Source: Trichodesmium erythraeum GBRTRLIN201
GTDB lineage: Bacteria; Cyanobacteriota; Cyanobacteriia; Cyanobacteriales; Microcoleaceae
Length of the DNA: 64,000 nucleotides
NCBI GenBank assembly: GCA_018457135.1
Contig: JAGGDU010000176.1
Location: 1-64,000 of the forward strand
Direction of reading: 5' to 3'
A model generated the notes under the pieces. It ran no database searches and was not told the DNA's origin. It saw only the letters and a program-made list of their open reading frames with translations. This document shows positions 1-10,092 of the stretch, piece after piece (position 1 is the stretch's first letter; every line of letters begins with the position of its first letter). The position numbers and the translations under genes are program-made.

Positions 1-438
1 AAAGAGGTTTCCTCGTTCCCTTATTCCTTTATTACGATTGATTTAGTGGGGTAAACTCTCCCGGAGGCCTTGAATGGTTGTTGACATAAACCAATGGATA
101 TTTATGCCCATTATTCCTCTGACTTTCGTCCTACATTCCACAGCTACCTTTGGAATGGTCCTGTATGACGGGAGTTTGATTACCTTCCTGTTCGTCCACT
201 TGTCAACCTTTGCTCGCGGTATCGTTCCTCGGTAACTGGTATTTTCCCGCTTTTAAACCAGCTTCAGGGATTGATGTTCAGTCGCTACCCTGTGGTCTAC
301 GCTGTCAACCTAACAACAAGGTGGATGGAATTTCACCATCAAGGTAATAAGAGTTGTTCTAAATCGGGGTATCCCATGTATTGATTTAGGACGGTCATTT
401 ATACCCAGTTTCCTGGTTTAGTGACCAACGAGTCGCAC
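1..438 (-). ncRNA. HEARO / IscB omega-RNA-like element, copy 1 (runs off left edge)
   Basis: This is a structured, non-coding stretch read on the minus strand. It begins with GTGCGACTCGTT at 438-427, contains the hairpin GATGGTGAAATTCCATC (340-324) and GGTTGACAGC (310-301), then GGTAGCGACT (289-280) and CATCAATCC (276-268), and later several GC-rich stems. The same blocks occur in the same order in a second copy beginning at 1565, so this is a repeated RNA-like element and not chance. Order, size and style resemble HEARO RNAs, now known as IscB-associated omega-RNAs. An iscB gene would be expected left of position 1, outside the window. The identification is from memory of the family; the homology between the two copies is seen directly. 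Confidence 0.55.
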
Positions 439-956
439 CCATTGTTTACAGTTAGTTTTCCCTTCTGTGTTGACAATTAATTGTTCAATAAACTGGTCAG
501 TATGTTTATTTACTCGCTTCACTTAAATTTAATAGGCTGGATGAAGCTTGAGTGATGCCTATCCCACAGTCACCTTCTGTCAATTTATTCATGTGACCAT
601 GTTTTTGTTTTTTTGAACAAATGACCAAAATTTATCACTGCTAACCTGTGAGGTTTTCAGATTTTCTACATGGCCATTATGAATCATTTCTCCCTTTTAA
701 AAGGTCGTCCTCACCAAACTGACTACCGTCTTATAGGCCAGGTTTACTGTTCAACTAGTTCCTCTTAAACTACTAACCTCAACATGAGCCTGTAGAACCA
801 TAGGGATTTTTTCATGTCCAACTTTTCGCCAGTAGTAAAGAGCGTCAAAAGTATCGGTGAAAGTTTGTAGGCATTCAGGACAATAATATCGTTGAGAACA
901 TTACTAGTCTTTCCATGTTTATGATTTTCCTGATGGCCACAAAAAGGACATTTCAT
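439..956 (-). pseudogene. IS1-family transposase fragment, interrupted by the omega-RNA-like element
   Basis: The minus-strand frames encode an N-terminal zinc-finger start (MKCPFCGHQENHKHGKTS), then in shifted frames segments like VENLKTSQVSSD, LTEGDCGIGITQASS and TDQFIEQLIVNTEGKTNC, the typical order of an IS1-family transposase. Several stops and frame changes break it. The coding match ends at about 439, where the element starting GTGCGACTCGTT begins. A second decayed IS1 copy at 13046-13743 continues past this point, so the junction can be read as an insertion into IS1. It is not functional. Confidence 0.75.
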
Positions 957-1323
957 AATAATTGAGAGTATTTCTTGAAAGTATTTAGGGATAATACTCA
1001 TACTATTATTCCTAAACTTTCTTGATGCAGTACCGAAATTTCTATAGGATATATAGAAAGAAAAATCTATAGCACTCACCTCAATATTTACAAATTTGAA
1101 GGAACAATCATTTTGCACTTATAGACATAATTTTATAGTTTATCTACAGAACTCTTAAGCTTAAAAAAATGTCTGAGGATAAAACAATCTTTCACTTCTA
1201 ACGGCAATTCTCAACCAGAGTTAGTCCAGAATATACAAAAGTAATTAAGCAACTAAGCAAAATTTGTGATAAAACGATAGAATTATAAGCCGTAGTATCT
1301 GGCAATATAATCTGAAACTTACT
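957..1323. other. AT-rich gap without a gene
   Basis: No supported gene is seen. The upstream part of the IS1 relic probably extends a short way into it. The remainder precedes the small gene at 1324 and may carry its promoter. Confidence 0.5.
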
Positions 1324-1584
1324 ATGAATGAAACAACTAACGAATTAGTCGAAAATATGCCTAGGGAGCAGAGGGTTGGGCAACTGCGTAACTTAATTGA
1401 AACCCTACATATAGCCGATGAAGTGGCCAATAAAGGCTATCTAATCACTAGCTCTGAACTGGCAGATTTAATGGATATCAATGCCAGTGCAGTTACTAGT
1501 CGTGGAGATCATTGGGTATGGCGGAACTGGGTTGTATCTAGAGTCCGTCGTGAAGGGAACCAAAGTGCGATTCGTTTCTGCTAA
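1324..1584 (+). CDS. Small conserved cyanobacterial protein, C-terminus disrupted by an element
   Basis: This encodes 86 residues from an ATG start. The central part (SSELADLMDINASAVTSRGD, followed by WVWRNWVVSRVRREGNQ) looks like a small helix-turn-helix protein known to me as a conserved hypothetical in cyanobacteria. The last codons after GNQ (about position 1563) are derived from the inserted omega-RNA-like element, whose left end GTGCGATTCGTT starts at 1565. The native C-terminus has therefore been replaced by five foreign residues and a stop. A DNA-binding role is only inferred from the HTH-like pattern. It may be a pseudogene or a still functional truncated protein. Confidence 0.5.
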   Translation: MNETTNELVENMPREQRVGQLRNLIETLHIADEVANKGYLITSSELADLMDINASAVTSRGDHWVWRNWVVSRVRREGNQSAIRFC

Positions 1585-1717
1585 AAGTTAGGGTCATAGT
1601 ACCAAGATGTGAGCAGAGTAAGGCCATTAGCCTTATAACTAAATGACCTTGGAGGTGTGATTCCTCCTGCCCAGGTGCAGGGTTGACAGCATCACCCCTA
1701 CGGTAGCGACTAGCCAT
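1565..1717 (+). ncRNA. HEARO / omega-RNA-like element copy 2, 5' exon
   Basis: It starts with GTGCGATTCGTT, shares with copy 1 the block ACCTTGGAGGTGTGATTCCT (hairpin 1651-1667), then GGTTGACAGC (1681-1690) and GGTAGCGACT (1702-1711). It ends at CAT (1715-1717), where a group II intron enters. Joining 1717 to 4182 restores CATCAATCC exactly as in uninterrupted copy 1. If it acts as an omega-RNA, the guide would be the flanking sequence just upstream of 1565, as is known for IscB systems. No iscB gene is present on its 3' side in this window, so this would be a stand-alone or orphaned copy. Confidence 0.5.
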
Positions 1718-2353
1718 GTGCGATGTGAAAATCGTATATCCAACGTGTACAACACGCTAAGAATGAGGAGCTGTCTCCTCCAAGGGATTCTCTCCCCTTG
1801 TCCCCATGTAAAGGAGTCACTGACTCTGCCTACGTCAACAGTAAGTAATGAAACTGACGGAATGCAAGGCACAAAAGTCCAAGCTACAAAACCTGAATTG
1901 TAAGGAAGACAAGGGGAAGATTGAGAAGGATTAACGAAAGTAAACCATTATTGATAGTCCCGTAATTCGCTCTAAGAGTGAAACCAGGTTGATACACTCT
2001 GACCAAAAGGTAAGCAGGTTGGTTATGACAGTATGGCTGGTCATAATGAGAGAACTAAACTCCTGCCGGGATAGAGATGGAATCCTAACTCAATTGAAGT
2101 TCAGATGTACGGGACACAGTAAGCCCTATAGGTTCTCAGGTGAAGGTCCAAAACTTGAGTAGGTCAACTGTAAAGAAGACGGAATTATCTAGAGGGTAAA
2201 GGAAGGTGGAGAAAGCAAATGCTTCTGTGTAATACAGGAGATAGGGGTACCCTTCAAGAAGCCTGAGGGCTAAAATATTTGCCCTACATTGAAAGATGGC
2301 AGACTTCCACCAGGTCTCAAACGATAAAACTTCAAAGAAGGAACTGAGCCGAA

Positions 2354-3823
2354 GTGAAAGATAGATTCAGTAATGAAATCGGAGCTAAGGAACCATTAAA
2401 AGAGTGGTTGGACATTAATTGGAAGACCATTAAAAAGTGTGTTAGGAACCTAAGACGGAGAATTTATCGTGCTAAACAGAACAGTCAGTGGAATAAGGTT
2501 CGCAGCCTAATGAAACTGATGCTACGCAGTTACTCCAACCTACTACTGTCAGTGCGAAGGGTGACTCAAGAAAACCAAGGGATACGAAGGATGGGGAGAG
2601 ACGCTCAGACGGCAAAGACTTCTGTAGAAAAAGTCAAACTTGTCAAAGAAATGCTGACATATAGGCTGTGGCAAGCCAAACCAGCTAAAAGGGTATACAT
2701 CCCCAAGGCAAACCGTCAACAAGGTCCACTAGGCATCCCCACAGTCAAAAACCGAGTTGCTCAGGCAGTTGTTAAGAATGGGTTAGAACCAATTTGGGAC
2801 GCAGAATTCGAGACAAATTCCTACGGATTCCACCCAGGTAGAAGTTGCCATGATCCTCTTGAACAATTCTGGATTAGACTCCAAAAAGGAAAGGATACAT
2901 GGATACTAGATGTCGATATTAAACAAGATTTTGACAATATTACCCATGAATACATCCTCAAAGCTATCGGAGAAATCCCTGGTAGAGAGTTAATCAAGCA
3001 ATGGCTAAAAGCAGGGTATTTAGAAGCCGAAGTTTTCCACAAGACAGAGGGGGGGACTTCTTCAAGAGGCATAATTAGCCCCTTACTTGCCAACATAGCC
3101 TTTGATGGGATGGAAAGATTGTTAGCTAGGTACAAAACAGTGAAAACCTATCAATGTACAAGGCCGACAACGGATGAGGAATACACCAAGAAAAAGAAGT
3201 TAGATAAATACGGATTTATCCGATACGCTGATGACTTCATAATCACCGCTCGAAGTGAGGAAGACATCAAAGCGATAATCCCCACTATTGAAAAATGGCT
3301 ATCAGAAAGAGGATTAGAACTTAATAAGGACAAAACCAACTTAGTTCATATTGAACAAGGATTCAACTTTTTAGGGTTCAATGTCCGCCAGTTCAACGGT
3401 AGCTGCTTCATAGTTCCACAAAAAGAGAAAGTTAAGGAATTTCTCACACTAATTCGGGGGTGGCTCAAAGCACACCCGACCAGTACACAAGAAGCAGTAA
3501 TTGCAAACCTTAATTCAATTATTAGAGGATGGGGGAACTACTACAGACATGGTGTAAGTCAACGAATATTTTCCTATGTTGACCACGAAATTTGGAAATC
3601 ACTCTGGCAATGGTCATTAAGAAGACACTCGAAGCGAGTGGGGAAACAAAAAGGAAAAGGTAAGGAATGGGTGCGAAAGAAATACTTCAAAACCGTCAAC
3701 GGAAACAAGTGGACTTTCGCAACAAACATAAGCAATAGGTATGGCAAGAAGGAAACAATAGCCATCTGCCGACTAGGAAAAGTTCCCATTCAACGTCATG
3801 TAAAAATTAAAGGCACGGCATAG
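2354..3823 (+). CDS. ltrA: Group II intron reverse transcriptase/maturase (endonuclease domain lost)
   Basis: The intron-encoded protein has 489 residues with a GTG start. It shows the RT fold in order: N-terminal RT0 region, SYGFHPGRS (about 156-164), the aspartate motif LDVDIKQDFDNI (185-196), ISPLLANIAFDGME (241-254) and the catalytic YADD (291-294). The maturase X domain follows, with IRGWGNYYRHG and KSLWQWSLRRH. RT and maturase parts look intact, so it could help the intron splice and copy itself. The usual C-terminal HNH endonuclease is cut off by a stop after KIKGTA, and its decayed remains follow at 3824-4105. GTSSRG replaces the more usual GTPQGG before the ISPLL motif. Confidence 0.9.
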   Translation: MKDRFSNEIGAKEPLKEWLDINWKTIKKCVRNLRRRIYRAKQNSQWNKVRSLMKLMLRSYSNLLLSVRRVTQENQGIRRMGRDAQTAKTSVEKVKLVKEMLTYRLWQAKPAKRVYIPKANRQQGPLGIPTVKNRVAQAVVKNGLEPIWDAEFETNSYGFHPGRSCHDPLEQFWIRLQKGKDTWILDVDIKQDFDNITHEYILKAIGEIPGRELIKQWLKAGYLEAEVFHKTEGGTSSRGIISPLLANIAFDGMERLLARYKTVKTYQCTRPTTDEEYTKKKKLDKYGFIRYADDFIITARSEEDIKAIIPTIEKWLSERGLELNKDKTNLVHIEQGFNFLGFNVRQFNGSCFIVPQKEKVKEFLTLIRGWLKAHPTSTQEAVIANLNSIIRGWGNYYRHGVSQRIFSYVDHEIWKSLWQWSLRRHSKRVGKQKGKGKEWVRKKYFKTVNGNKWTFATNISNRYGKKETIAICRLGKVPIQRHVKIKGTA

Positions 3824-4105
3824 CCGGAGAACCCCTCTTTAACCAAATATTTGAAATAACGTTATACAAAATATGACAAAGCTCATCGGGTCAAGGTTCA
3901 AAATACTACAAAATTACCTAAGCTCAGAGCTGGAAATGTTCCTATGAGTGGTGAACACTTATTTAACTGAGAGAAACTGCACACCCATCAAAAAAATAAG
4001 GGTGAAAGACGGTGGCATGGACAAAATTTATGGCCTAGTCCACTTGTATAAATGTTGTCACAAATATATATACACAGGCAAATGTTCTGTAAGGCAAGAG
4101 GCTTG
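3824..4105 (+). pseudogene. Decayed HNH endonuclease domain of the intron-encoded protein
   Basis: Reading on in frame past the stop gives a recognisable ancestral continuation: PENPSLTKYLK, RYTKYDKAHRV, SGEHLFN, EKLHTH. After a frameshift it continues VKDGGMDKIYGLVHLYKCC and HKYIYTG. This is the zinc-finger/HNH domain of related intron proteins. It carries three nonsense codons, at least one frameshift, and loss of the two Cys normally before GEHL (now V and S). The ancestral stop would overlap the start of domain V near 4105. The domain that cuts the second DNA strand during retrohoming is therefore gone. Confidence 0.75.
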
Positions 4106-4181
4106 AGCCGGATGATGGGACAACTGTCAAGTCCGGTTCTTAGGGGGGAGAGATACGGCGACGTACTTTCTCCTACCCAAC

Positions 4182-4470
4182 CAATCCGTAAAGCGGGGTG
4201 AAAAGGTGGTACAACTGACAGCTTAGGTTGGTTCCCATCGAGCAAAATACCCATTGGATAGCTATAGTGCGAAGATGTGAGTGAAGCGTCGTTACGTTCA
4301 ACCAGTGAAATAAGCTGTGACACTGGAGCCAAAAGGCAAAGGATAGGGAGTTAGCGAGATTTGGTTCGACTAACAAGCACTTCCCCTAAACCCGGCGCAA
4401 AGCATCATCCTAAAGGTATATAGATAAGGTCATTTGGAACGAAGTAACCCATGAAAAACTCTTGAATAGC
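4182..4470 (+). ncRNA. HEARO / omega-RNA-like element copy 2, 3' exon (diverged)
   Basis: The first bases CAATCC...AAAGCGGG match copy 1 (CAATCC...GAAGC). Further down, similarity becomes patchy: CGAGCAAA, GGAACGAAG, and AAACTC appear in both. The right end is not clear; the similarity fades near 4470. There is no open reading frame for an IscB-type protein after it. Confidence 0.35.
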
Positions 4471-5082
4471 TATTTATTAACACTCAGCCACAGAAGTCAC
4501 AATTAAAAAGTAGGGGCTTTCTGGCCATTACCCCGTACATTCTTGTTATGACAATATTTGAGAGGCGCGAGAATCTCAATTACTCTGGGAAGTGCTATAA
4601 TTCTTTTTTTTAGTGCAATACTTGAGTAAAAAATAAGCTTTTAAGCTTCCTATTTGAAGTTATCTGTTATCAGAAACTTCTGAAAATATTGTGGGGAGCA
4701 ATGCAAAAGGGAGCAGCGCAAAAGGGAGAAAGAGTATAGTAGGTTGGCAGGTTGCTGCAAAACTACTTAATTTATCAAAAAAATGTATTTTTCAATGCAC
4801 TTTGTTCTCCTGAAAAAGTCTCTCAAAGACTTAAAGATAACTTGTCTATTTTGCCCAAGTTTTTTTAAGAAAGATGTTTATATAATAAAGCATTTTAAGG
4901 GAATAACAAAAATCAACTGAGGTACTGATAACTGATAACTGAGATAGTAAATTCAAGTAGGTGCTAACCGTATGTTTGATTGGGAGGGATTGTGTCACAA
5001 GCAAAAGCCCTTTGTTAATTTAATGGGATATGCAGACGGACACACGGTGATTTGGAATGTAGAGTTTGAGTAAGTAATATAA
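4471..5082. other. Gap between intron elements
   Basis: AT-rich, without a convincing gene. A 33-codon frame at 4972-5073 (MFDWEGLCHKQKPFVNLMGY, then ADGHTVIWNVEFE) precedes the RT gene and is of unknown meaning. The short repeat TGATAACTGATAACTGA is at about 4926. The folded domain I expected upstream of an intron ORF is not seen here. Confidence 0.4.
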
Positions 5083-6432
5083 ATGTCTAATACGAGTTTA
5101 AAGACTACGGGGGAATGGAAAGAGTGGCGTGAGATTAATTGGACAAAAGTTGAGCGTCGGGTCTTCAAGTTACAGAAAAGAATCTACAGAGCCTCTCAAC
5201 GTGGTGATGTTATTGCAGTTCGTAAGCTCCAAAAAATGCTGATAAAATCTTGGTATGGGAGGTTGTTGGCGGTGCGTAGGTTTAGTCAAATTAACCAGGG
5301 TGAGAAAATAATAGAAGTTGGTGGTGTTCAATTATTGTCTCCAGACAAATGTTTTGCCTTGGCTAAAAGATTAAAACTAAATAGCAAAGTTAAACCAATG
5401 ATAAGTACTGTTAAGGACCAACCCTTGCAAATACTTGTCAAGATGTCTCTAGAGAACCAATGGGAAGCAAAGTTTGAACTTTCTTCTTATGGGTTTAAGC
5501 TACCGAAGTCATGTCAGGACGCTATGAAAGCAATTGTTAATTGTGTTAAGTTTCATCCGAAATATTTACTGAAAGCTGATATAAGTCAATGCTTTAAGTG
5601 TTTTGATCATGAACAACTATTAAAAAAATTAGATACCTATCCCACTTTACGCAAACAAATTCGAGTTTGGTTAAAAGATGGTTTGATCAATGGTAAAGAC
5701 TTGTTTAAATGGGAGGAAGTCATTTCTCCACTACTGGCAAATATAGCTTTCCATGATACAGAAGAAAAAATCAAACATTACACTAAAGCACTGAGTGATC
5801 AATGTGAAGGTTTAAGTTTGATTCGTTATGGAGGTAACTTGGTGATCGCTCACAAAAATATTGAGGTAGTTCAAAAATGCCAATATATAATTAGAGAGTG
5901 CTTATCTGACTTATGTTTGGAATTAAAACCTAGTCAAATTATTATTTATCACACACTATATAGGTGTGGTGAAGAAGAACCTGGATTTGATTTCTTGGGG
6001 TTTAATATTAGACAACATAAGGTTAGTAAAAACCAAAGTAAGCTGGGTTTTAAAACCAAAATCAAACCAAGTACGGGGATGATCAGAAGTCATTATTGTC
6101 ACATTGCTGAGGTGATAGATAAATATAAGTCTGCATCACAAGCTGTCTTAATCAGAAAACTCAACCCTATTGTTAAAAGTTGGGTAAACTATTACTCGAA
6201 ATTATTTGTGAGTAAGAAAATTTTCCAGGATTTGGATAATTTAATATTCCAAAAACTCTGGGGTTGGGCAAAAAGAAGACACCCTAATCAAAATAATCAT
6301 TGGATTTATCAAAAATATTGGCAAAGTATTGGGGAAAACAAGAGAGAATTTTTTGGTAGTGACAAGAATGGCAGTCAAGTTAGATTATTGAGGCACGCAA
6401 ACTTGATTTATTGGAGCATAGAATTGGCATAG
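5083..6432 (+). CDS. Group II intron RT-like maturase with destroyed RT active site
   Basis: 449 residues from an ATG. It has the same layout as the 2354-3823 protein: N-terminal INWTKVERRVFKLQKRIYRA, SSYGFKLPKS, ADISQCFKCFDHE (165-177), VISPLLANIAFHD (213-225), DFLGFNIRQ, and the maturase stretch KSWVNYYSKLF plus QKLWGWAKRRH. The catalytic YADD is replaced by YGGN (249-252), and the GTPQGG region is missing. It should not reverse transcribe, yet the frame stays open for 450 codons with a recognisable X domain. A splicing-only maturase is possible. The HNH region after it is decayed. Confidence 0.8.
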   Translation: MSNTSLKTTGEWKEWREINWTKVERRVFKLQKRIYRASQRGDVIAVRKLQKMLIKSWYGRLLAVRRFSQINQGEKIIEVGGVQLLSPDKCFALAKRLKLNSKVKPMISTVKDQPLQILVKMSLENQWEAKFELSSYGFKLPKSCQDAMKAIVNCVKFHPKYLLKADISQCFKCFDHEQLLKKLDTYPTLRKQIRVWLKDGLINGKDLFKWEEVISPLLANIAFHDTEEKIKHYTKALSDQCEGLSLIRYGGNLVIAHKNIEVVQKCQYIIRECLSDLCLELKPSQIIIYHTLYRCGEEEPGFDFLGFNIRQHKVSKNQSKLGFKTKIKPSTGMIRSHYCHIAEVIDKYKSASQAVLIRKLNPIVKSWVNYYSKLFVSKKIFQDLDNLIFQKLWGWAKRRHPNQNNHWIYQKYWQSIGENKREFFGSDKNGSQVRLLRHANLIYWSIELA

Positions 6433-6688
6433 CAGAAGTCAGAAATAAAATTCTTACTGTGAATAAATTTGAGAGTGTGAGAATTTCCTAAGTTCCCTGA
6501 TGACTGCTATAAAAAGACAAAGTGCTAACTGCAATTTATGGACATTACTACGATGTAAAAACTGTTTATTATGACAGTGGAGGTACTCTTTTAATCAGGG
6601 CCTAATCACTGAGGAGCCGGATGAGGTGAAAGTCTCACGTCCGGTTCTGAAGACGAGCAGTTCTGGTGATAGAATTGCTTAGTTTAAC
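6433..6688 (+). mobile_element. 3' end of a 5'-truncated group II intron (decayed ORF tail, domains V and VI)
   Basis: Domain V is a clear hairpin at 6614-6649 (GAGCCGGATGAGG...CCGGTTCTG), and domain VI follows at about 6651-6685 with a candidate bulged A at 6681; the 3' end is probably 6687-6688. The frame across domain V reads EEPDEVKVSRPVLK followed by TSSSGDRIA and a stop, a typical C-terminal tail of cyanobacterial intron proteins that overlaps domains V-VI. Just upstream, GHYYDVKTVYYDSGG is the relic of its HNH end. No 5' GUGYG end or domain I is recognisable before the ORF. Confidence 0.75.
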
Positions 6689-7475
6689 TTCTCTGGCAAT
6701 TAGAAAGGGTAGATTAACTTTACCCATTACTTCCTATTTAATTAGGAATTTTAAAATTAGCGATCGCTTATCTTCATCAGTTGAGGAGCGATCGCTTATA
6801 CTAAGTTTTGTAACTTTTACTACAAATTTATACTAGTTAATCATTAATAGTCATTAAAAGTATATATTAGTTATAATTTTTTGTCATCAAATAAATAATT
6901 ATAGTATACTATGCATCTAACTTAAACTATTTAAGGAGTAATTTTTTCTAGATTATCTTTTGGTTCTATCTTCAGAGATACCTTCAATACCCCGAACTCT
7001 TCTAATGATTAAAATCTCTAAAGATTATCACTTCGCTTTATGATTAGCAACTATAATTTTACCTTGATTTTTCTTTTAGAGAGGTCTATGACTTACTATT
7101 ATAATGCACCATTAATGCACCATTTTCCCTATTTCAGTCAATTAGGAGGAACGGTAAATATTTCTAATATTGTTAACATACCAATCATATAATTGACTAT
7201 TGCTAAAATGATTTTGATTATATTCAACTAAATATTTATATTTTTCACAGCCAGACTAATATCACAGAGTTTTTCTTCTTCCTATTTTATTTTTAGGTTA
7301 GGAACGTAAATTAAATAATACCGGAAATTTGTAGTTTTTGCCTGGGAAATTTCTTGAGCTTAATTAATTTTTATGGCTTTATTTTGTTCTCATTTCTTAG
7401 CTTAAATTTCATCATTGATCTTGAAGTCAATCTCTTTGATTATCTCCTCAAGCACTTTTTGGTTTAGTCGAGCTT

Positions 7476-7718
7476 TTGATAAGATTACAATTATTATTAT
7501 ATTTAATTTCCCGATCTAAAACTATACAAATTTCAAAGTTAACTAATTACTTTCAGCTACCAATCAAATCTGAAAGTAAGGGAAAATATATACAAAATAT
7601 TGAACAAGAATTAAAGCTATGTCAAAGATTAAAAAGCTGTACAATTGTTGACTTTTTAGGATTAATTAAAATTAATAAAAGTAACTTTTTTTCTAATATT
7701 GTTGGCGATTATACTTGA
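7476..7718 (+). pseudogene. Possible IS4-type transposase N-terminal relic
   Basis: The 80-codon frame starts IRLQLLLYLISRSKTIQISK and continues LTNYFQLPIKSESKGKYIQ. This recalls the N-terminal helix region of cyanobacterial IS4-like transposases (LQLL...HKQ.RIE.LA..FP.PI..ESRRR). After about 45 residues the match is lost. It is a weak call from memory. Confidence 0.3.
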
Positions 7719-8462
7719 AAATTTATTTAATACAAGCAGTAGGTGTGATATGATGCTGGTAATGCAACGCTGTCCAACCGCACTACACTCACATATATTC
7801 TCAATAAGCGTTCCCTTTCTGTTTAAGTGTTCCTTGCTTTCAACAGGCAAATCATTCTCTACATATAACTTTCAACTAGCTTGTCACCCCTTCAATAAAT
7901 TTCTATATATAACTCTATTTTGAATACTGAGTGCTACTCTTTTTTCCTCTCTGATTAATATATGTCTGAAAATATTATTGTTATGTTAGTCAAGCCTTTT
8001 TGTTAAGGTAAAAAAATTTTTCTGAGAGTATGAACCCTCTGAAAAGCTATCCTTAGAACTTTTGCGACATTTGTTTGAGTTAATTTATCTTTCATAGTTG
8101 GGATATGGGTCTTGTTGAATAAATCTGAAATTTACATCTAATATCTGAGTAGGTAGACACAATTAATTACACATTTTATCAAAGGGAGTCTCTTATACTA
8201 CATATCTCACATGAAATTAGGTAGGTAAACAATTTTTTTTAAGTGCTTATATTAATTACTTATTTAGATATTTGAGATTTTATAGTATCATCGTAAATAT
8301 TAAAATTAAAAGCTTCTATAGTCGCATTACTTGACTTTGAATATTTTATTTGTAATCAACAATTATATCTAGCCTAGAAAAATTACTTAAATACTAAACT
8401 AATAGTAATTCCCCAAAAAAATGTATACTGATATGATGCTTTAATTCTTATAGTAGTTCTGG

Positions 8463-8616
8463 AGTTAAGTAAATAGCCATGAAAAAAATTAGCTATTAAG
8501 ATTTGTAGACTGAGTTTAAGATATTCTCTTCTACAGATTTGATTTGAGATAAATTTATATTTTGTTACATAGTAACCAATTTCAACACTAATTTCAACAC
8601 TAACTTACTTCATTAG
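8463..8616 (+). repeat. Dispersed intergenic repeat, copy 1
   Basis: This copy is about 150 bp, with the blocks TTAAGTAAATAGCCATGAAA, ATTAAGATTTGTAGACTGA, TCTACAGATTTGATTTGAGA, TTTTGTTACATAGTAACCAA and AACACTAACTTACTT. The same order of blocks recurs at 40851-40982, in part at 35231-35306, and reversed at 59155-59250. It has no coding frame. Confidence 0.7.
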
Positions 8617-9231
8617 TTTAGAGCAGAGTTAATCAGGTACAAAGGTTTTAAGAATTTAGGGAATAGAGAATAAAGATAAGTATTAAACTACACCTAACCA
8701 TCCTCAAAAGTATTATAAGTAATTAAGACGGTACAAATAATTTTCTTGATAATTACGAGCTAGTAATATATTAATTATTCTTATGTTTACTTCTTGACCC
8801 CTATCCCACTCCTTACAGAGATAAGTTTTGAACAAAGGGGAGAGGAATCATTTTTATTTAGTATAAAATATCAAAAAAAAGCCTGATTTTTAAGATAATA
8901 GATGTGTGGAAATTAATGCAAAAATTAATATATTCAAGATTTTTTGATAAAATTTTAGAAGAAAAGTAAAAAACATACTTTTGTAATATTAAGTCTCATT
9001 AATTAGCCATAATAAAAATACATTTCTCACATCAATTGCTCCCAATTCCCAATTCCCTAAAATTTTCCCAAAGTGGGTATTTAAAGAAATATGATATAAA
9101 CTCCTCTACTCACTTACTTCTTTTTTCAATTCATTGTAAAAATATCTTCTCCCTCCAAACTCTTCACAAACTCTGGTAGTTTGAGAATAATAACTAACTA
9201 GATTTAGCATAATATATTCTAAGATTAAGGC

Positions 9232-10092
9232 ATGACAACTATTTGGGAACTAGACTTTTACAGTCGTCCAATACTTGATGAGAGACAAAAAAAACTTTGG
9301 GAACTATTAATTTGCCAAAGTCCCATAGGTATTAATGACACTACAGACTCTTTATATCGTTATTCAGAGTTTACAAATAGCCAAGAAGTCAACTCCATTT
9401 GGCTACGGAGTGCTATTGAAAAAGCGATCGCTCAAGCTCCCGAACCCCCTGAAAGAATACGGTTCTTCCGTCGCCAAATGAATAACATGATTACCAAAGC
9501 TTGTGGAGAACTGGCCATACCGATAGCCTTAAGTCGTCGCACTTATTTACTTAATCAGTGGCTAGAACAAAGAATGGAAGAAGTTTATCCAACTTACCCC
9601 GGTTATCAACCAGGAACAAATCCTTCAGGTCAATATATGAATTCTGCACCACAACCTTTACCAGATGCATTAATTGGAGAGAGGTGGACATTTGTTAGTT
9701 TAGAAGCAGGGGCCTTTACGGAAATGTCAGAGTGGGATATTGATTTTGGGGAAGCTTTTCCCCTCAGTATGATGAATCTAGCACCATTATCTGCTATTCC
9801 TGGTTTAATAATCTATTCATCTAGGGCACAAGCTTTAGCAGCTTGGATGTCAGGATTAGAGTTAGCTTTTATCAAATTTTCACCTGCCTCTCCAGCTAGG
9901 TTACTATTAAATACTGGAGGTAATGATTGTTGGATTTTAGCTAATCTGAGTAATCCATCTACTATTGCCGAAGCTAAAAGATTTTCCGAAGCCAAGTCAA
10001 AGGCCAAAGAAGTTCATTTTCTGGCAGTACAGTCAAATCCAGAATCAGAATCATTTGCTGGTTTTTGGTTATTACAAGAAATTAATGTTTAG
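9232..10092 (+). CDS. Tab2/Atab2-like RNA-binding protein (DUF1092)
   Basis: 286 residues. The opening TTIWELDFYSRPILDERQKK and the later WELL, TYLLNQWLE, YPGYQPGTNP and PLPDALIGERW are typical of the Tab2 family. In algae and plants, Tab2/ATAB2 binds psaB or other photosystem mRNAs and aids their translation. Cyanobacterial members are conserved but less studied. C-terminal residues (GLIIYSSRAQALAAWMSGLE and GGNDCWILA) also fit. It stands alone with 80 bp before the next gene, on the same strand, so it may share a transcript with the pmbA-like gene. Confidence 0.85.
   Translation: MTTIWELDFYSRPILDERQKKLWELLICQSPIGINDTTDSLYRYSEFTNSQEVNSIWLRSAIEKAIAQAPEPPERIRFFRRQMNNMITKACGELAIPIALSRRTYLLNQWLEQRMEEVYPTYPGYQPGTNPSGQYMNSAPQPLPDALIGERWTFVSLEAGAFTEMSEWDIDFGEAFPLSMMNLAPLSAIPGLIIYSSRAQALAAWMSGLELAFIKFSPASPARLLLNTGGNDCWILANLSNPSTIAEAKRFSEAKSKAKEVHFLAVQSNPESESFAGFWLLQEINV

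Follow-up and report, generated by a model that had tools for sequence, protein, structure and literature searches.

Group II introns are known to home into one another, and the closest described case comes from Trichodesmium erythraeum itself. In the gene Tery_4732, Pfreundt & Hess (2015, PMC4649490) described the twintron Tr.e.I7/Tr.e.I8 and showed by RT-PCR and northern blot that it is spliced sequentially in vivo, the inner intron leaving first and the outer intron next to give a putatively functional mRNA; both junctions, the mature mRNA, an intermediate without the inner intron and the circular inner intron were all detected (PMC4649490). The same study found the host gene without an intron outside Trichodesmium (PMC4649490). 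The twintrons of Thermosynechococcus elongatus, with TeI3 inside TeI4 (Mohr et al. 2010, PMC2882425), resemble this arrangement in that a cyanobacterial group II intron occupies a recurrent conserved site in another, but there the incoming intron lacks an ORF, its target is the region of the IEP ORF (domain IV) and the flanks are non-coding (PMC2882425), whereas the inner intron of Trichodesmium bears an ORF, enters a domain-I loop and lies inside a protein gene. In Methanosarcina acetivorans, nests of up to five group II introns likewise result from repeated site-specific homing into other group II introns, although these nests are archaeal and without coding flanks (PMC4424553).

We analysed a 64,000-nt stretch of T. 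erythraeum GBRTRLIN201 DNA (the window), near the start of which lies what is almost certainly a group II twintron, composed of an RT-encoding inner intron in the domain-I loop of an older outer intron, within a small gene. Its features, together with those of a second domain-I copy discussed below, are as follows.

1..438, minus strand: copy 1, the 5′ part (domain I) of a further group II intron, which is multicopy, with its 5′ G near 438
1324..1564, plus strand: host gene exon 1 (Tery_4732+), codons 1-80 plus one base
1565..6688, plus strand: outer (host) group II intron, Tr.e.I7, 5124 nt including the inner intron; 5′ end GTGCGATTCG
1693..1703, plus strand: 5′ arm of the outer intron's domain-I hairpin, from covariation
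1710..1717, plus strand: IBS1 for the inner intron, CTAGCCAT, part of the outer intron's domain I
1718..4181, plus strand: inner group II intron, Tr.e.I8, 2464 nt; defined by 5′ end GTGCGATGTG, 3′ D5-D6 and empty sites in relatives
2033..2040, plus strand: EBS1 of the inner intron, ATGGCTGG, pairing with IBS1 at 8/8 positions
2354..3823, plus strand: inner IEP, 489 aa, with RVT_N, RVT_1 containing YADD, and GIIM (Pfam)
4103..4181, plus strand: domain V-VI of the inner intron (Rfam Intron_gpII RF00029, 48.9 bits), bulged A at 4175
4186..4200 (4186-4190, 4195-4200), plus strand: 3′ arm of the outer intron's domain-I hairpin, from covariation
5083..6432, plus strand: outer IEP, 449 aa, with RVT_N, RVT_1 and GIIM (Pfam); YGGN replaces YADD (motif scan)
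6611..6688, plus strand: domain V-VI of the outer intron (RF04357 64.9 bits, RF00029 59.9 bits), domain V at 6611-6651
6689..6717, plus strand: host gene exon 2, with the rest of the Ile codon followed by LWQLERVD and a stop; published splice junction

Judged by its sequence, this locus is the published twintron, because the spliced product, the outer intron length, the ORF lengths and the mis-annotated tail SAIRFC of the published Tery_4732, also present in the window, are all the same; the phenomenon is thus already known, contrary to the original prediction, which knew of no described case. When joined, the exons encode MNETTNELV...REGNQILWQLERVD, an 89-aa RNase HI-associated conserved cyanobacterial protein that matches the printed Tery_4732 spliced product at 89/89 residues, and uninterrupted homologues with 83-88% identity occur in many cyanobacteria. 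The insertion codon, the domain-I insertion and exon 2 are also equal, as are the outer intron length of 5124 nt (published as 7263622r-7258498r) and the IEPs of 489 and 449 aa. The two descriptions differ by one base: the published account places 154 nt of outer intron before an inner intron of 2463 nt, compared with 153 and 2464 nt here. An off-by-one in the paper seems to be the cause, since the empty sites, the intron consensus and the total length all fit 153. Beyond the published twintron, the present analysis adds loci in Okeania and Hydrocoleum that carry the outer intron alone, the loss of YADD from the outer IEP, and relatives of the inner intron in the same loop elsewhere.

The inner intron had been predicted as a 2464-nt group II intron at 1718-4181, and both the Rfam D5-D6 element and the empty sites in relatives support these borders. 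Joining 1717 to 4182, as had been proposed, reproduces the arrangement in Okeania and Hydrocoleum homologues, in which the two halves are contiguous at exactly this point. The proposed EBS1 pairing with 1710-1717 was likewise recovered at 8/8 positions, one of them a G-U, and intron position 316 also serves as EBS1 in the relative G264b, there pairing over 8 positions with a different target, GCGGTCGG. The predicted domain V and the bulged A seven bases from the 3′ end are both present (A at 4175), and the inner D5-D6 folds more stably than shuffled sequence (z = -4.57). Its IEP keeps YADD and is truncated in the C-terminal DNA-binding/HNH part; a length of 489 aa, compared with 596 aa in other populations, has been published (PMC4649490). 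A genome search recovered one full copy of the inner intron in T. erythraeum.

A second D5-D6 element, which the original prediction missed, outscores that of the inner intron (64.9/59.9 compared with 48.9 bits), and each of the two is preceded by an ORF with RVT_N, RVT_1 and GIIM. One complete intron is located within the other, each with a 5′ GTGCG and D5/D6, as expected of a twintron; the element that had been delimited at 1565-4470 extends much further, as a group II intron with its own maturase ORF that spans 1565-6688. The outer IEP carries YGGN at the RT active site in T. erythraeum, Hydrocoleum and two other loci, and YAGN, YAGD or YGSS elsewhere. YADD has thus been lost from every homologue in which the motif could be read, while in the window the frame is open and GIIM is intact. 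The outer IEP is probably maturase-like and RT-dead, acting as a splicing factor only, and the outer intron itself, probably inherited vertically, would no longer be mobile. Its retention in three genera despite loss of the RT active site indicates that it persists as a splicing-only element. Five of the homologous loci in Okeania and Hydrocoleum (L001, L002, L004, L006 and L008) contain an extra 100-250 nt about 33-40 nt from the outer 5′ end, in basal domain I; in at least one of them, L002, this extra segment includes a short repeat that recurs behind the IEP stop (window ~6429-6475).

The inner intron occupies the 18-nt loop of a hairpin in domain I of the outer intron. To characterize this hairpin we used 21 distinct versions of a 62-nt region, drawn from the window, copy 1, other genome copies, Okeania, G264 and others. 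The 11-bp split hairpin is common to all 21, with 98.3% of cells paired and double changes in 6 pairs, and its covariation score of 0.599 compares with 0.188 ± 0.026 for shuffled alignments (0/500) and at most 0.122 when slid. When sequences of the 66-nt hairpin were folded singly, the z-scores were unremarkable (-0.8 and -0.6); the appropriate test here is the count of covarying pairs. Taken together, the empty sites and the covariation show that a conserved structure of the outer intron is made whole again when the inner intron is taken out. The two copies of the element at the start of the window, which the original prediction had taken for copies of a single element, do align by covariance, although as group II domain I. 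They have a short motif in common, are ~70% identical over 99 nt without gaps and are linked by compensatory changes. Copy 1 belongs to a different intron family; it is truncated by the contig end, as the window begins at contig base 1. Using the joined domain I as a genome query, we recovered ~15 further copies, nearly all of them uninterrupted across the junction, and in the regions examined around such copies, group II D5/D6 elements occur on the strand of the domain-I copy (in L102, for example, D5 elements at 1744 and 5132 come after domain I near 372 and 2784).

We propose that an older, vertically inherited outer intron sits within the 3′ end of a short, conserved cyanobacterial gene, and that the inner RT-encoding intron would have retrohomed, guided by EBS/IBS pairing, into its domain-I hairpin loop. 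As the inner intron splits this hairpin, the scaffold of the outer intron could not form until the inner intron leaves, and the outer ribozyme would be unable to fold before that point. The inner intron would then fold and exit first, allowing the domain-I hairpin to close and the outer ribozyme to become foldable, after which the outer intron, aided by its own maturase ORF, would exit and join the exons for the 89-aa protein. The loci with and without the inner intron provide a natural before/after pair for a splicing order that would be forced by an intron within ribozyme domain I.

We also examined whether other introns have been entered in the same way. Across 391 genomes of the order, the domain-I motif with an inner-type 5′ end directly after it was matched 8 times, compared with 0 for the reversed control; the matches fall in the T. 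erythraeum genome of the window, three Trichodesmium MAGs, G169, G264 and G211 (two fragments). The closest relative of the inner intron beyond Trichodesmium, 85% identical, is that of G169 (genus g2), where it follows ...GGTAGCGACTAGCCAT directly in the same loop of a different host intron. There, in G169:C170 (L145, L169; reversed contig 1-9270), four group II introns are nested, as read from a draft assembly with coordinates given on the reversed contig. At the outermost level, L0, the RT gene is interrupted by L1 (830-8151) inside the YGFRPG motif; L2 (1030-5825), which is the Tr.e.I8 relative, divides domain I of L1, and L3 (3441-5789) in turn divides domain VI of L2. Four D5 elements correspond to the four levels, and with the levels joined the IEP frames of L1, L2 and L3 are open over 601, 588 and 576 codons, while that of L0 is frameshifted. 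In contrast to the Methanosarcina nests, this four-level nest is bacterial and uses the domain-I site.

The match in G264 (family f50; L181, G264:C160, near 3425-3470) is a 24-nt relic, GTGCGATGTGAAGTCGTACATCAC, which lies between the loop halves of another host intron and consists of the first 22 and last 2 nt of the inner intron; it is evidently a nearly precise loss. In G211 (family f39), inner-type 5′ ends were found in two domain-I fragments. More distant relatives of the inner intron (67-70%) occupy group II RT genes in G155 and G172 and TnpB/OrfB genes in G157, G184 and G315, with Pfam run on the hosts in G157, G315 and G172. Domain I of group II introns seems to have served repeatedly as a target for homing, and the lineage of the inner intron quite likely parasitises mobile elements repeatedly, re-using the loop of a conserved domain-I hairpin of other group II introns. 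Recurrent homing of this kind bears on the origin of twintrons. In a literature search of incomplete coverage, we found no published account of domain-I site re-use or of Okeania twintrons.

The original prediction regarded the interrupted element as omega-RNA-like, so that a group II intron would lie within the omega RNA of a HEARO/IscB or TnpB system and the guide RNA would function only once spliced. A short conserved motif does occur in two copies, and relatives of the inner intron elsewhere do occupy TnpB genes. The HEARO covariance model (RF02033), however, gave no match in positions 1-7000 even at E ≤ 5, nor anywhere in the T. erythraeum genome, while as a positive control the same search scored as high as 168 bits and gave matches in 27 of 146 cyanobacterial genomes. 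Rfam returned no RNA families in the window other than those of group II introns, and among the listed ORFs (80 aa or longer) of positions 1-9000 there was no IscB/TnpB-like ORF, the two longest being RT-maturases. Moreover, the 5′ end of the element is of group II type, and the element includes D5/D6 as well as an RT-maturase ORF. The covariance models thus reject a HEARO/IscB omega RNA, the element is domain I of the outer intron, and we regard a guide-RNA reading as having practically no chance of being correct. What stands of the claim that function requires splicing is that the insert splits a structured RNA, which would be able to work only once the insert has been spliced out; this RNA is domain I and not a guide RNA. 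A locus fossilized as two decayed introns that have lost splicing and silenced the host gene is also very improbable. The shortened inner IEP (489 of 596 aa), the outer IEP without YADD and the δ-δ′ mismatch reported for the twintron (PMC4649490) would fit such decay, but both splicing steps and the mature mRNA have been detected by RT-PCR and on northern blots (PMC4649490), the nine-codon exon 2 is still intact in Trichodesmium and Okeania, and the hairpin pairs have been maintained through compensatory changes.

Given a twintron that splices, the order in which its parts arrived can be approached from the empty sites. The outer intron alone was found at the same codon in 7 loci (6 Okeania and 1 Hydrocoleum), each with an exact empty site at 1717/4182, in contrast to the published finding of no intron beyond Trichodesmium, and both introns were found together in three Trichodesmium MAGs, with the search extended to the whole family. 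On the simplest reading, the outer intron would be the older of the two and the inner intron would have arrived after it. Alternatively, the inner intron may be ancestral and have been precisely lost in Okeania and Hydrocoleum rather than gained in Trichodesmium. A tree of domain I, which with 410 columns is too short to decide between one gain and an early gain followed by losses, does not resolve a single twintron clade and does not by itself prove a single gain. The G264 relic of 24 nt, located at this site, demonstrates that losses of this kind take place. In addition, two Okeania alleles (L003 and L006) have CTAGCGAC instead of CTAGCCAT directly before CAATCC at the empty site, and their GAC, which resembles the intron 3′ end, is possibly the scar of a lost inner intron or possibly the product of plain substitutions. 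Yet the target sequence is perfectly intact at several empty sites, and several precise losses are less simple than one gain, and we therefore consider ancestral presence unlikely and favour a later arrival of the inner intron in an outer intron already in place.

Upstream of the host gene, the minus strand of the window contains a 117-aa ORF (765-1118) with a zinc-finger-like stretch, MKCPFCGHQENHKHGKT; the ORF had no match in Pfam and by eye resembles an IS1-type transposase fragment.
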